From a virus: 26,275 nucleotides of DNA. The DNA lies in the IMG/VR virus record IMGVR_UViG_3300007542_000155, positions 1-26,275 of that record; one strand, given 5' to 3'. The notes beneath the pieces are model-generated. The model was not told where the DNA came from, ran no database searches, and worked only from the letters and a program-made list of their open reading frames with translations. Each line of letters begins with the position of its first letter. The stretch's first letter is position 1. Below are positions 10,687 through 17,294 of the stretch, in pieces. The position numbers and the translations under genes were made by a program.

Positions 10687-11984
10687 TGCTTAGCCTTACG
10701 ATGTCTCTTGGCCTTGGCGCTTATCGTGCCGGGACTAGCTCGGCTCCTTCCATCTTCGCCGCATCGGCTCAAAAGATCGTGGACGCATGGGCCGCCAAGC
10801 AGACTGTCAATCGGTCTCCTGCATCGCCGCCGACTGTGACGCTCGGAAACACTGGTGTCAGCACGATCAATGGGCGAGCGTTAAATCAGAATGGTATTGT
10901 GCCCACAACGTCTATCCCAGATGGCTATTCCGCGCCAATGAATGCAGATAGCCGATGGATTGTGACGAAAGCCGCTTCAACACAGATTGAGAGCAACCGC
11001 ACGTATGCGCCCGGCAACTCAAAAATGCCCATTTTTACCGGGCAGGCATTCGACTTCAAGGCTTCGGTGTCCAGCGGCAAGGCATTTTCAATACGATGGT
11101 CCGAGGACAACGGAGCGACTTGGAATGAAGTCGGCCCCTATGTCTGCACACTGTCTAGTTGGACGTTGGTAGACTTCGGTTCTGCCGCAACTCGCGTGGT
11201 TGAACTGATCTGCGAGGACCAAGCATTCCAGACCTACGGCTTCAACTTCGACACTGGAACGACGCCCCCGGAAGCATGGGCCTATACTGGCCCCGCTGGC
11301 GTAATGCTTGGTGATAGCTACGTATTCAACCAAGGTGCTGGCGCAATCGTGGGCCTGTCGAACAATCAGCACGCGACCAAGGGCATGTGTCGCCAAATGG
11401 CCGAATATCTCGGCTTCCTGCAAATCCGTAACCACGGATTTAGGACAAATGGGTGGTCAAACACTCAAAGCGGTGTGCAGTCGAACTTCAAGGATCGCAT
11501 AGACTTGCCTGCACCTGCGGACAACGCGCTATCCGAGGGCATTGTGATGGGCGCAAATCGCGACTTTGTTGTTGTTCCGACCTCGATCAATGACGCATCT
11601 GCGACGTTCGATGGAACGCGCCGCACGGACGTTTCTACCGCTTTGGCACGGCTTCGGGCCATGCAGCCCAATGCGCTCATTGTCGTTCCGTTTGGGGCTA
11701 ACGCGCCGCAACTGGCAGAGCCGACAAACTGGCTCAATGATATGAAGAATGGTTTCAATGACGTCTTCGGCACAACCGAAGCTGAGTGGATTGCTAACGG
11801 GGCCTACTTTATCGACGGTTCACGCGCGGCGGGCGCTGCATGGGTTCCGGCGGGGGTAGCAGGTTCATCGGCCTACTTCCCGGCAAGTGGCGATCCGCAG
11901 CACCCAAACACAGCAGGACATGCGTTTTTTGGCGAGAAATACGGCGATGGGTTGCTATATTTGGCTCAGCAGATAGTTGCCTAA
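10686..11984 (+). CDS. SGNH/GDSL-type hydrolase, second esterase of the phage
   Basis: A 432-residue protein starting in a TAATG overlap with the Rz1-like gene. The first ~195 residues are beta-rich, with AFSIRWSEDNGATWNEVG resembling a repeat of carbohydrate-binding/tail proteins. The catalytic part starts with GVMLGDSYVF (Ser211, block I GDS), and YFPASGDPQHPNTAGH near residue 405 has the DxxH block V pair. It probably de-esterifies host surface glycan, or modifies the receptor on release. Unusually it lies after the lysis genes, away from the tail genes. It has no signal peptide, so it is either a virion component or an enzyme released at lysis. A hairpin follows 7 bases after the stop. 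Confidence 0.8.
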   Translation: MLSLTMSLGLGAYRAGTSSAPSIFAASAQKIVDAWAAKQTVNRSPASPPTVTLGNTGVSTINGRALNQNGIVPTTSIPDGYSAPMNADSRWIVTKAASTQIESNRTYAPGNSKMPIFTGQAFDFKASVSSGKAFSIRWSEDNGATWNEVGPYVCTLSSWTLVDFGSAATRVVELICEDQAFQTYGFNFDTGTTPPEAWAYTGPAGVMLGDSYVFNQGAGAIVGLSNNQHATKGMCRQMAEYLGFLQIRNHGFRTNGWSNTQSGVQSNFKDRIDLPAPADNALSEGIVMGANRDFVVVPTSINDASATFDGTRRTDVSTALARLRAMQPNALIVVPFGANAPQLAEPTNWLNDMKNGFNDVFGTTEAEWIANGAYFIDGSRAAGAAWVPAGVAGSSAYFPASGDPQHPNTAGHAFFGEKYGDGLLYLAQQIVA

Positions 11985-11990
11985 CGACTA

Positions 11991-12018
11991 AGGCCAGCGC
12001 CGGTTAAGACGCTGGCCT
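11991..12018. terminator. Hairpin closing the late operon
   Basis: A perfect 9-bp inverted repeat, AGGCCAGCG / CGCTGGCCT, with a 10-base loop, begins 6 bases after the stop of the last late gene and 62 bases before the end of the convergent gene at 12080. There is no T-run on either side, so it is not a textbook intrinsic terminator. The convergent position suits a two-way terminator or an mRNA 3'-end stabiliser. Confidence 0.55.
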
Positions 12019-12079: not shown

Positions 12080-12454
12080 TTAGGGCTTTAGAGCGCGGAT
12101 AGCGGCAAGAGCGCTTTCAGGGTAAATCTGGACGCTACCCGGCTCATTCTCGCTTTCAATCGCGTAACCAATGGGTGTTAGGTTGGTGGAATAGAAGCCG
12201 ACGACTTTGCCCGTCCATGCGCTGCCTTTGGTCTTGGTAACGCGCTCGCCCAAGCTGAACTTACCCACCGGCCCCGCTGCTTGGGCAGGGGTTAGGGGGC
12301 GGTGACTAGCGAAGGCATCCAGCATGAAATGCCGCTCGGTTGAACGCAGCAAGTTTGTGATGCTATGCCCATTGCCAAACAGGATGGTTGCCAACTCGAT
12401 GGCCTTTTCACGATCCGCCTGCGTAACGACAACTTCGGTCTTATCTTGGCTCAT
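12080..12454 (-). CDS. Fusion: phage helical N-terminus plus type II (R67/DfrB-like) dihydrofolate reductase domain
   Basis: A 124-residue protein. Residues ~66-118 match plasmid R67 DHFR as I remember it, with about 33 of 51 positions identical by hand count. Active-site residues are kept: Lys74 (R67 K32), Trp80 (W38) and the VQIYP motif with Gln109, Ile110 and Tyr111 (Q67, I68, Y69). W45 is Phe87. [10 protein letters not shown] and EPGSVQIYP are diagnostic. R67 works as a homotetramer of SH3-like barrels forming one central pore that reduces dihydrofolate with NADPH, and it is insensitive to trimethoprim. Residues 1-60 are a separate helical segment seen in small phage proteins ([19 protein letters not shown]). 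The domain may supply folate for phage nucleotide synthesis, or it may be a non-enzymatic SH3-like relative. It is the last gene of the minus chain and overlaps its upstream neighbour by ATGA. Confidence 0.85.
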
Positions 12455-12624
12455 GATTGATCCTTGGGAACTGGGCGGCTCATATCTGCGTATTGTGAAG
12501 CGCGTCTATGCTGCTCAGGCTCAGTCAGCTTGCTATTCCGCAGATATGCTCGCCAGTTGCGATATAGCTTTTCCTGTGCTCTAGTGACGGGTGGTTTGTT
12601 ACGCATGTGTTCATAAGCGCTCAT
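12451..12624 (-). CDS. Small basic hypothetical protein
   Basis: A 57-residue protein, rich in Arg, Lys and Gln (for example [19 protein letters not shown]). I choose the ATG at 12624 because it overlaps the stop of the upstream Lar-like gene by ATGA. The frame is open further upstream, but that part lies wholly inside the Lar-like gene and looks non-coding. Its stop overlaps the DfrB-like gene start by ATGA. No family is recognised. Nucleic-acid binding is possible given the charge but not shown. Confidence 0.6.
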
Positions 12625-12950
12625 GACGCGGCTCCGGTCGCGCGGGTGAGGGCATCTGCACACAGGTCTGCAAACCGCTGATTTGTTGCAGCCTTTTCGT
12701 GCTTGCCAGCATTGCGATGCTCTGTGGCGTAGAAGTTGAATTGCGCATGACACGCCTTCAACGCCCCCACCAAGTCATTATGCACAGTGCGCGCGCTCCA
12801 TGCTGCGAGGGCTTCGGCTTCGGTGGGGTGATTGCCAGACGTTGCACCACAATTTTCGCAATGAACTTCCCCATCATGGATTTCTGACAAGCCGATGAAC
12901 AGTTTAATATTAGCGCTACTGCAAAATGGGCATGGCGCGGGGTCTGTCAT
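12621..12950 (-). CDS. Lar-like restriction-alleviation / zinc-ribbon protein
   Basis: A 109-residue protein. The first ~55 residues follow the Lar pattern: PCPFCSSANI (CxxC), then HCENCGATSGNH (second CxxC), then a helix containing EAEALAAWSART. The N-terminal zinc ribbon followed by 'A..AW..R' is typical of Lar-family phage proteins. The founding member modulates type I restriction in favour of the phage. The C-terminal half, with FNFYATEHRNAGKHEKAATN, is a helical extension of unknown role. Most Lar-like annotations rest on this motif alone, so anti-restriction activity is a family-level inference. Confidence 0.75.
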   Translation of the reverse strand: MTDPAPCPFCSSANIKLFIGLSEIHDGEVHCENCGATSGNHPTEAEALAAWSARTVHNDLVGALKACHAQFNFYATEHRNAGKHEKAATNQRFADLCADALTRATGAAS

Positions 12951-13189
12951 GGGTTTTGCTCCGGCTTGTAGGCGATGATGCGACGCGGTGGTGTCGCCTC
13001 GCTAGTTTCCCATTGCCAGCAGTCAAAGCCATAATCTGCCGAGACCCAGAGTGAGGCTAGCTTCCAACTTGGCGGGTAATCTAGGCCGGTATTGAACTTA
13101 ACCCCCGGCTTGCTATCCAGCGACACCGGACAAGGCCCACCATCATGCGGCAACCATCCGTCTGTGATCTGTTTAGGGGTTAGGGTCAT
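12947..13189 (-). CDS. Small phage protein with GGPCPV / IIAYK motifs
   Basis: An 80-residue protein with WLPHDGGPCPV near the N-terminus, several Trp residues (LWVSADYGFDCWQW) and RRIIAYKPE at the end. From memory, small phage proteins with 'W..H.GG.CPV' and a terminal 'IIAYR' recur in early regions, with no known function. It overlaps its neighbours on both sides by ATGA (12947-12950 and 13186-13189), so it is part of one translationally coupled chain. Confidence 0.65.
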   Translation of the reverse strand: MTLTPKQITDGWLPHDGGPCPVSLDSKPGVKFNTGLDYPPSWKLASLWVSADYGFDCWQWETSEATPPRRIIAYKPEQNP

Positions 13190-13416
13190 GGGTGTGGCTC
13201 CTGCAAAATGGCGCGCAATCCTGTCGCGGTGATCGGTAGAGCAAATGCTAGGGCCAATGGGTTCATTGAGCCTTCAATCACTCCGAAAATGCCACACAGG
13301 CCAAACGCCATTGTGATGAACGCACTGCCTACAAAAGCCAGCCCCGCAGCGATCTTGCGCGCACTCTTTTCGGTCATCACATCCTTACCGGCGCTGTCTG
13401 GGGTGTGATCGGTCAT
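13186..13416 (-). CDS. Small two-span membrane protein
   Basis: A 76-residue protein with a polar N-terminus, then two hydrophobic segments (about residues 21-45, AAGLAFVGSAFITMAFGLCG, and 51-68, PLALAFALPITATGLRAI) and a short tail. It is a likely inner-membrane hairpin protein. Overlaps with both neighbours are ATGA. No family is recognised. Small early phage membrane proteins often act in superinfection exclusion, but nothing here shows that directly. Confidence 0.6.
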   Translation of the reverse strand: MTDHTPDSAGKDVMTEKSARKIAAGLAFVGSAFITMAFGLCGIFGVIEGSMNPLALAFALPITATGLRAILQEPHP

Positions 13417-15809: not shown

Positions 15810-15898
15810 CCCATTTCGCAAAAGGCATGATCATAGCCGCGTGCATATCCGCTTGCCTGTGGCTTATCATCGGCGCTGTGGTGTGGAGTATATGGTAA
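15806..15898 (+). CDS. Mini membrane protein (30 residues)
   Basis: The gene has 30 codons between ATGA and TAATG overlaps. It starts MTHFAKGMIIAACISAC and continues as one hydrophobic helix to the end (LIIGAVVWSIW). The two flanking overlaps are the support, as the protein is too short for family recognition. It could be a membrane-anchored peptide or a coupling leader that passes ribosomes to the next gene. Confidence 0.5.
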   Translation: MTHFAKGMIIAACISACLWLIIGAVVWSIW

Positions 15899-16539
15899 TG
15901 TGGAAGTATGCTGCAAAAACACCATGTGCATATAAGGGCTGCAAGGACAACGTAGGCCCGAAAAATAAAAGCGGCCTGTGTCGATGGCATAAGGTCATTG
16001 TAGCGCGTGAGAAAAAGCCACTTCGGCAATGCAGTGAGTGCAAAGACTTTTTGCGCCATGGCAATATTAGCGGGATTTGTGGCGTTTGCCGATCAAAGGA
16101 AAGCCGCCGCCGCACCAAAACATGCCGTGTATGCTCCAAGAAGCTGGATCATCGCACAATCAGCGGCCTTTGCTTTGTTCACCTGCACCCAAAGGCGAAA
16201 GACGTTTACAACATGGGTAAGCCGGACGCGCCGTATTCAGTGGCAGAGGTCAAGGAAGCTGCTGCATGGATGACGCGGATTAGCATTGCAGACCTGGACC
16301 GCCCTAAAGGACCGCGATGGCTTTCAAATATCCGCTTTGCCTGCTGGGCTATCCTATACTCACATTATTCATATGGGCATATCGGCAGGGTGTTTGGTGG
16401 ACGGGATCATTCTACTATTATGCACGGAGTAGATCGTGCTGAAACCATGATAGAAACCGATAAAAACTTTGCGTCACTGGTAAACGCAATAAAGCGTGAA
16501 ACCTTTGCGCGCCAGAAAATAGAAAGGCTCGCAGCATGA
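15898..16539 (+). CDS. Zinc-finger protein with DnaA domain IV-like DNA-binding domain
   Basis: A 213-residue protein starting at the ATG of a TAATG overlap. Residues 1-100 hold three treble-clef-like zinc sites: C10..C15..C28..H31, C45xxC48..C61xxC64, and C76xxC79..C92xxH95, each with an SG(L/I)C turn. Residues ~114-195 match the C-terminal DnaA domain (domain IV), with HIGRVFGGRDHSTIMHGVDR as its signature helix-turn-helix; GGRDHST is at 167-173. In DnaA this motif reads the DnaA box. There is no AAA+ ATPase domain. The protein therefore should bind DnaA-box-like DNA without ATP-driven unwinding. It may act at a phage or host origin, as a transcription factor, or as a decoy for DnaA boxes. 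It lies directly upstream of the methyltransferase and overlaps it by ATGA. Confidence 0.85.
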   Translation: MWKYAAKTPCAYKGCKDNVGPKNKSGLCRWHKVIVAREKKPLRQCSECKDFLRHGNISGICGVCRSKESRRRTKTCRVCSKKLDHRTISGLCFVHLHPKAKDVYNMGKPDAPYSVAEVKEAAAWMTRISIADLDRPKGPRWLSNIRFACWAILYSHYSYGHIGRVFGGRDHSTIMHGVDRAETMIETDKNFASLVNAIKRETFARQKIERLAA

Positions 16540-17294
16540 CCAATCTGCGCGTGCTTGATCTTTTTTCAGGTATTGGCGGCTTCTCTTTAGGACTTGAAAG
16601 GGCTAACCATGACGGAAAATACAACGGCTTCGAAACAGTCGCCTTCTGCGAAATCGAAGAGTTCCCGCGCAAAGTCCTCGCAAAGCACTGGCCAGGTGTG
16701 CCTTGCTACCGAGACGTGCGCGAACTCACCGCAGAGCGACTTACTGCCGATGGAATTGCCGTTGACGTTATCTGTGGAGGGTTCCCGTGCCAGGACCTTT
16801 CATCGTCTGGGACTGGTTCTGGATTGGATGGGGATCGAAGTCGCCTCTGGTATGAATACGCGCGCCTTATTTGCGAACTTCGACCATCCTACGTCATCGT
16901 GGAGAACAGCCCAAACCTGCTTGATTGGTTTGGCCCCGTCCTTGGGACGATGGCCAAGGTCGGGCTTGATGCGGAATGGGAGTGCATACCAGCGGGAGCC
17001 GTTGGTGCCCCACATTTCCGCGACAGGCTTTGGGTTGTTGCCTACCCCTCTGGCCAGCGATTATCGAGACAGGGGGAACTTATCTCATCCGTCACTCAAG
17101 AGGCGTCTGCGTATAGGGAAGCAAATCAGCTTGAACGCGCATTTCGAGAAAGAAACCTGCCCTTCGTGTGTGGAGGGCATGATGGGATTCCCCCATACGT
17201 GGACCAAGCTGCCGTAAAAGCCCTTGGAAACGCCGTAGTTCCCGCCATCCCTGAACTTATCGGAAACGCCATATTGGAGGCAATAAACACATGA
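16536..17294 (+). CDS. C5 cytosine DNA methyltransferase
   Basis: A 252-residue protein, short for the family but with the main motifs in order. Motif I is DLFSGIGG (8-15) and motif IV GGFPCQDLS with catalytic Cys85. Motif VI is VIVENSPN (Glu123; ENS instead of ENV). Motif VIII is GAPHFRDRLWVVA (157-169) and motif X is KALGNAVVP (228-236). The target-recognition region between VIII and X is only ~55 residues, so specificity may be narrow or relaxed. The enzyme transfers a methyl group from SAM to cytosine C5, probably protecting phage DNA from host restriction or tagging it. No endonuclease lies beside it, so it is an orphan enzyme. A 202-codon ORF with its own ribosome-binding site lies within it in the +1 frame. 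Confidence 0.93.
   Translation: MTNLRVLDLFSGIGGFSLGLERANHDGKYNGFETVAFCEIEEFPRKVLAKHWPGVPCYRDVRELTAERLTADGIAVDVICGGFPCQDLSSSGTGSGLDGDRSRLWYEYARLICELRPSYVIVENSPNLLDWFGPVLGTMAKVGLDAEWECIPAGAVGAPHFRDRLWVVAYPSGQRLSRQGELISSVTQEASAYREANQLERAFRERNLPFVCGGHDGIPPYVDQAAVKALGNAVVPAIPELIGNAILEAINT
16609..17217 (+). CDS. Overlapping +1-frame ORF inside the methyltransferase gene
   Basis: A 202-residue frame beginning ATG at 16609, preceded by AAAGGG at a 6-base spacing, and fully inside the methyltransferase gene. It includes a Ser/Lys-rich N-terminus (SKQSPSAKSKSSRAKSSQS), SRARTFHRLG, SSWRTAQTC, WPRSGLMRNG, VPHISATGFGLLPTPLASD and a C-terminal GMMGFPHTWTKL. From memory, proteins with 'SSWRTSQ', 'WPRSGM..NG', 'G..LPTP.A.D' and 'MGFP.GWT.L' recur in phage annotations and lie in the +1 frame of C5 methyltransferases. 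SSWRTAQTC, for example, is the shifted reading of the motif VI codons. Length, ribosome-binding site and motif recurrence support translation. Conservation could instead be a by-product of the methyltransferase motifs. Confidence 0.5.
   Translation: MTENTTASKQSPSAKSKSSRAKSSQSTGQVCLATETCANSPQSDLLPMELPLTLSVEGSRARTFHRLGLVLDWMGIEVASGMNTRALFANFDHPTSSWRTAQTCLIGLAPSLGRWPRSGLMRNGSAYQREPLVPHISATGFGLLPTPLASDYRDRGNLSHPSLKRRLRIGKQISLNAHFEKETCPSCVEGMMGFPHTWTKLP

Follow-up and report, generated by a model that had tools for sequence, protein, structure and literature searches.

Among the closest described relatives of the protein analysed here are the R67/DfrB1-DfrB21 enzymes (PF06442, NF000331), which are encoded in integron cassettes or on Burkholderiales chromosomes; R67 is an unusual enzyme of four subunits that accounts for part of trimethoprim resistance. 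Where dfrB genes come from and what they do in nature is an open question in the literature, and no characterised relatives of these resistance genes are known (PMC7725336, PMC11662351, PMC9835603). Work on dfrB origin points to Burkholderiales chromosomes, in a text that makes no mention of phages (PMC11662351).

In 2020, Moon et al. described DfrB2-like genes on four freshwater phage contigs; at 67% identity to DfrB2, they were given as possible resistance genes and not as fusions (PMC7265639). In 2023, Lemay-St-Denis et al. tested two phage homologues and found that the R67 domain works within larger proteins (PMC9835603). DfrB-H4, a Vibrio-phage fusion, conferred trimethoprim resistance on E. 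coli, as did its isolated domain, while DfrB-H3 of Pseudomonas phage PS-1 was not expressed and gave no resistance. DfrB-H5, a Methylobacterium fusion, had R67-like kinetics and formed tetramers, and its domain alone directed tetramer formation. The same study reports that W45 of R67 is dispensable and not conserved in R67-domain fusion homologues, and that H62 tunes the stability of the R67 tetramer and makes it pH-sensitive (PMC9835603). In 2025 a survey reported dfrB-like genes from lytic phages, eight in all (PMC12466917). Several phage records also already annotate an R67-type dihydrofolate reductase, for example as 'dihydrofolate reductase protein' in a Rhizobium phage. A phage-borne R67 fusion, as described in our initial annotation, is therefore not new, having been anticipated by the literature (PMC9835603, PMC7265639) and by these records. 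Our own contribution concerns how large and how modular the phage pool is, and the placing of dfrB as one twig amid virus-borne sequences.

The R67-domain gene and its phage setting

The window, that is, the whole stretch of DNA analysed, is a linear IMG/VR virus record of 26,275 bases, possibly incomplete. The gene of interest and its surroundings comprise the following features.

12080..12454, minus strand: R67/DfrB-domain gene, 124 aa, matching PF06442 and R67 structures
12263..12454, minus strand: N-terminal segment, residues 1-64, predicted to be partly helical
12098..12262, minus strand: R67/DfrB SH3-like core, residues 65-119, from Pfam, NCBIfam and PDB matches and AlphaFold2
12122..12133, minus strand: active-site motif V108-Q109-I110-Y111 (R67 V66-Q67-I68-Y69)
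12461..12465, minus strand: AAGGA Shine-Dalgarno-like site of the R67-domain gene
12451..12624, minus strand: 57-aa gene upstream of the R67-domain gene, with ATGA overlaps at both ends
12621..12950, minus strand: Lar-like (restriction alleviation) zinc-ribbon protein, 109 aa (PF14354, phrog_599)
12947..13189, minus strand: 80-aa gene of the same ATGA chain, from its ORF and overlaps
13186..13416, minus strand: 76-aa gene, first of the ATGA chain, no PHROG match
11991..12018, strand not assigned: hairpin with an 11-bp stem between two converging gene ends

Inspection of the ORF and its start placed an ATG 6 nt downstream of the AAGGA site, and an ATGA overlap couples the gene to the preceding 57-aa gene. 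Because such an overlap occurs at every junction in the order 13186-13416, 12947-13189, 12621-12950, 12451-12624 and 12080-12454, all on the minus strand, the R67-domain gene closes a chain of five translationally coupled genes. The ORF is thus real and lies where the initial annotation had put it, at the end of a minus-strand chain. The Lar-like gene that had been placed beside it is also real (PF14354 E 1.6e-8, 35.1 bits against a cut-off of 28.6), but the two are separated by the 57-aa gene, which in the reading 12451-12642 had no match in a PHROG search. The hairpin folded at -29.6 kcal/mol (z -4.7), and no shuffle was equally good; it lacks a clear T run and the terminator scan gave no listing there. 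It is a possible shared terminator of the R67-domain gene and of the gene running towards it, whose end is at 11984.

The C-terminal part of the protein matches R67, far beyond what chance would give. Residues 65-118 hit PF06442 (DHFR_2) with E 1.1e-22 and 80 bits, well above the gathering cut-off of 25, and the PDB chains of R67 with E 2.8e-18, in agreement with the core first proposed at residues ~66-118. Identity to R67 is 34/54 (63%) over the whole core; an earlier hand count of 33/51 over a shorter span proved exact on recount. NCBIfam trim_DfrB (NF000331) matched with E 1.5e-24, but the 85.7 bits are below its curated cut-off of 137. Residues 63-118 also matched phrog_31682 (E 5.5e-23), which PHROGs lists as of unknown function. 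R67 numbering is obtained by subtracting 42, so that K74, W80, F87, Q109, I110 and Y111 correspond to K32, W38, W45, Q67, I68 and Y69. This agrees with the first assignment of active-site residues and with its reading of W45 as Phe; the assignment had missed that H62 is replaced by Glu (E104), as it is in most viral copies. All pore-binding residues of R67 and the dimer-dimer tryptophan are kept. A single-chain AlphaFold2 model built with 66 relatives reached pLDDT 94-97 over residues 71-120, and its seven best PDB matches were all R67 (0.6-0.7 A; TM 0.91-0.95 by target length). The modelled core is an R67 protomer fold.

The window protein thus shares with R67/DfrB the 54-residue SH3-like core and K32, W38, Q67, I68 and Y69. 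It differs in W45F and H62E, in its 64-residue unrelated N-terminus as against the 20-residue DfrB tail, in its length (124 aa, whereas NF000331 describes 78 residues free of extra domains), and in lying in a phage early operon instead of an integron cassette or a Burkholderiales chromosome. DfrB-H3 and DfrB-H4 are more similar in organization, being phage proteins with an R67 domain, extra segments and a non-conserved W45; their flanking segments and phages are different. The genes of Moon et al. are likewise phage-borne and R67-like. Sm_phiM9_002 of phage phiM9 and gp25 of Ochrobactrum phage ZX86 carry the same domain (74-80% identical) among replication and recombination genes; unlike the window protein, these and the Rhizobium phage genes have the bare domain or other extensions.

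The N-terminal segment had been described as a phage helical domain. Partial helicity is predicted, with AlphaFold2 modelling helix 12-26 well and residues 31-60 at pLDDT 53-57. Residues 1-64 had no relatives in IMG/VR, among the ORFs of the fetched loci or in phage records (E up to 5), so the label of phage-type domain is weakly supported, by two motif look-alikes in other phage ORFs. By these searches, the segment is private to the window protein. A scan for the motif VTQxDR...AFARHR gave two other matches as against 0-1 in shuffles; the VTQxDR...QAFARHR look-alikes lie in one ORF of L027 and in L044, where the segment opens a further R67-domain protein. We treat these similarities as a lead only.

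The phage setting held up: the record carries Lar-like, single-strand-annealing protein, exonuclease, RusA, DnaB and tail/ejection genes. The P22-type ejection/DNA-transfer proteins had their best tblastn matches in P22-like and Vibrio phages (~30%); further genes encode an endolysin, an O-like replication protein, a 3'-5' exonuclease and a C5 cytosine methyltransferase. The latter (16536-17294) directly follows a plus-strand gene (15841-16539) in which a DnaA C-terminal helix-turn-helix (PF08299) is joined to zinc-binding-like repeats. With the window DnaB as query for sister phages, four relatives only were found (~60%). The host is probably a sphingomonad, since the nearest copies of the R67 domain are in virus locus L017 (85% identity) and one Novosphingobium chromosome, and DnaB has a weak match to a Sphingopyxis phage.

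Spread, conservation and modularity of the R67 domain

Relatives were detected by tblastn in 26 phage records, and an alignment scan found the domain in at least 232 IMG/VR virus contigs and at 51 loci in bacterial contigs (one genome per species). The scan patterns required [EH]xGSVQIYP or LT[PA]xGY[AC][VI]E and the sample is biased; as viral loci we used the 80 most window-like of the 232. Across 95 relatives, K74, W80, G82, G86, Y88, G96, E100, S101, G106, S107, V108, Q109, Y111 and P112 were invariant, and part of the VQIYP conservation follows from the search itself, one pattern of which required this motif. K32 and W38, which lie outside the patterns, were present in 100% of 73 distinct viral cores, and the pattern-free phage relatives found by tblastn alone kept VQ[IV]YP. 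Rough dN/dS estimates (52 codons) were ~0.3 for virus pairs and 0.14-0.48 where one member of the pair was the window gene. These values indicate purifying selection on the R67 domain.

The domain occurs bare (~60-80 aa), C-terminally, N-terminally or in mid-protein, and the flanks share no sequence: attached segments of 0 to >300 residues, at either end, are unrelated to each other. Lar-like zinc ribbons are fused to it in L008/L097, L037:2644-3309 and L104:9761-10204. Fusions with a MazG-like pyrophosphatase, identified by reading the proteins and tallied in a PHROG scan, are C-terminal in L053:4180-4788 and L061:5452-6060 and N-terminal in L102:4770-5558, and a MazG-like gene (L065:10424-11008) adjoins an R67-domain gene. 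Such fusions and neighbours in both orders hint at a role in nucleotide metabolism.

Tyrosine integrases, exonucleases and annealing/recombination proteins are recurrent neighbours. In L062 (8861-10174) a beta sliding clamp immediately precedes a bare R67-domain gene, and a serine integrase lies downstream of the latter; in L279 a DNA-ligase-like ORF, read by eye, is directly upstream. Nearby genes also include a DNA polymerase in MW202697, UvsX and a primase-helicase in phiM9, and SSB and RusA in Rhizobium N4-like phages. As a separate observation, phiM9 (KP881232.1) has a partial ThyA-family match at 147896-148246 and its bare R67-domain gene at 417-620, at opposite ends of the record; the two would be ~1.4 kb apart if the genome is circularly permuted.

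We compared gene counts per record with 29 control contigs, which were picked by a random 14-mer and were not host-matched. Lar-like matches were found in 11/50 DfrB-carrying viruses and 8/29 controls, and despite the three Lar-R67 fusions we dropped the idea of an association with Lar anti-restriction. A ThyA-family match was present in 8/50 DfrB-carrying records, mostly large ones and far from the DfrB gene, as against 2/29 controls; ThyX was found in 1/50. This co-occurrence of thymidylate synthase with DfrB in viruses, which the help for phage nucleotide synthesis raised in the initial annotation would lead one to expect, is weak, and the counts are too weak to establish a folate-cycle module like td/frd of T4.

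Proposed function and alternative explanations

Our preferred account, which we hold to be probable, is that the window gene encodes an NADPH-dependent dihydrofolate reductase that works as a tetramer of its C-terminal domain and serves early nucleotide supply. It is based on the fold model, on the conservation of residues in the pore and on the published assays of DfrB-H4 and DfrB-H5. The gene would yield a type II (R67-like) enzyme in which four C-terminal SH3-like domains assemble round one pore. Gln109, Ile110, Tyr111 and Lys74 of each copy would line the pore and bind NADPH and dihydrofolate, and catalysis there is predicted to be a slow, trimethoprim-insensitive reduction to tetrahydrofolate. 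Expression would be early, alongside the recombination and replication genes; we counted the single-strand-annealing protein, 3'-5' exonuclease, RusA and DnaB found with the R67-domain gene in the window in favour of the account, as we did the replication and recombination genes near its relatives and the MazG-like fusions. The benefit to the phage may be that thymidylate and purine synthesis are sustained during DNA copying. The N-terminal segment would hang off the tetramer and be dispensable for catalysis. Several points weigh against this account: the slowness of R67 and the dihydrofolate reductase that hosts usually have of their own (PMC11662351), the weak thymidylate synthase counts, the Glu in place of H62, the partly pattern-driven conservation of VQIYP, and the failure of DfrB-H3 to be expressed or to give resistance.

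The R67-type pore may instead have been kept for another small ligand that is NADPH-, pterin- or nucleotide-like, for example a modified nucleotide or a signal used in defence. The protein would then be a sponge, a carrier or a different reductase, and dihydrofolate reduction a side activity seen under overexpression. That R67-domain genes are small early accessory genes with many fused partners, in a variable region beside integrase or Lar-like/HNH genes, is compatible with this, as are the weak thymidylate synthase counts, the Lar-like fusions and a macro-domain gene near the R67-domain gene of phage ZX86. Yet conservation is highest at the positions that in R67 bind NADPH and folate, dihydrofolate is the sole tested substrate of such homologues, and Lar-like genes were not commoner in DfrB-carrying viruses than in controls. 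We regard another ligand as rather unlikely.

A structural role is improbable. The same domain joined at either end to unrelated segments could be read as a tetramer-forming module that clusters whatever is attached to it, with catalysis incidental, all the more as in DfrB-H5 the isolated domain is enough for tetramers to form (PMC9835603). Many viral copies are bare, however, with nothing to cluster, and a scaffold needs no exceptionless conservation of Q67, Y69 and K32.

It is very improbable that the gene is a decaying or untranslated remnant: its final place in the chain and an N-terminal segment for which no relatives were found would fit, but the full-length ORF, Shine-Dalgarno site, ATGA coupling, low dN/dS and intact core argue against decay.

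Relation to the dfrB resistance genes

We built a careful tree of 116 cores and 54 columns, which is unrooted because no outgroup exists and which reflects biased sampling. In this tree the dfrB genes of integrons and Burkholderiales make up 17 rows, a shallow twig inside a 34-row set (support 95/84) whose other 17 rows are viral. Constraining the viruses to one clade was rejected (p-AU 0.0008); constraining dfrB to one clade was not (p 0.30). A larger quick tree had few supported forks. Chromosomal copies other than dfrB were scattered among the viral ones, and several of them adjoin phage genes (integrase, DnaB, primase, head morphogenesis, tail, endolysin). The neighbours of dfrB-type loci included integron-type integrases, an acetyltransferase, QacE and transposases. 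The viral copies closest to dfrB, sought with a query alignment that had filler at some row ends and of which only conserved stretches were searched, are 83-85% identical to the Burkholderiales type, the closest being L062 (85%).

A clinical dfrB cassette recently captured by the phage under trimethoprim selection would suit the R67-like sequence (63% identical) and the resistance given by a phage homologue, but has a negligible probability given that the nearest sequences are viral (L017, 85%), integron dfrB lies elsewhere in the tree, the score of 85.7 bits falls short of the one NCBIfam sets for DfrB, neither an integrase nor another cassette marker was identified next to the window gene, and even the viral copies closest to dfrB are just 83-85% identical to the Burkholderiales type.

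The initial annotation had proposed phage copies as a plausible reservoir. This idea gains support from the wide distribution of the domain in viruses and from the shallow integron dfrB twig among virus-borne sequences, which points to phages as the principal natural pool of the R67 fold. Transfer of dfrB from phage to bacterium is the favoured, not proven, direction because the viral diversity is broad; the comparison is limited by the 54 columns, the absence of an outgroup and the biased sampling. A wider picture, which we put forward tentatively and consider possible rather than probable, is that the R67/DfrB fold is an early-gene module of phages of Alpha-, Beta- and Gammaproteobacteria, its pore under selection for phage purposes (nucleotide supply or small-cofactor capture), and that integron and Burkholderiales dfrB are one late offshoot. 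If so, phage early operons are the place to look for the deep diversity and the native function, and phrog_31682, the family matched by the window core and listed in PHROGs with no function, would gain one, the R67 link giving it a name.

Among the bacterial loci, L134-L137, L140, L143 and L144 form a distinct clade with the sequence KKGRASWRGKIVGWYRTDLTxLGYAIES. Its members are ~70 aa long, start with madpwpsd or similar, and lie on chromosomes of Ensifer, Bradyrhizobium, Sphingomonas and Mesorhizobium.
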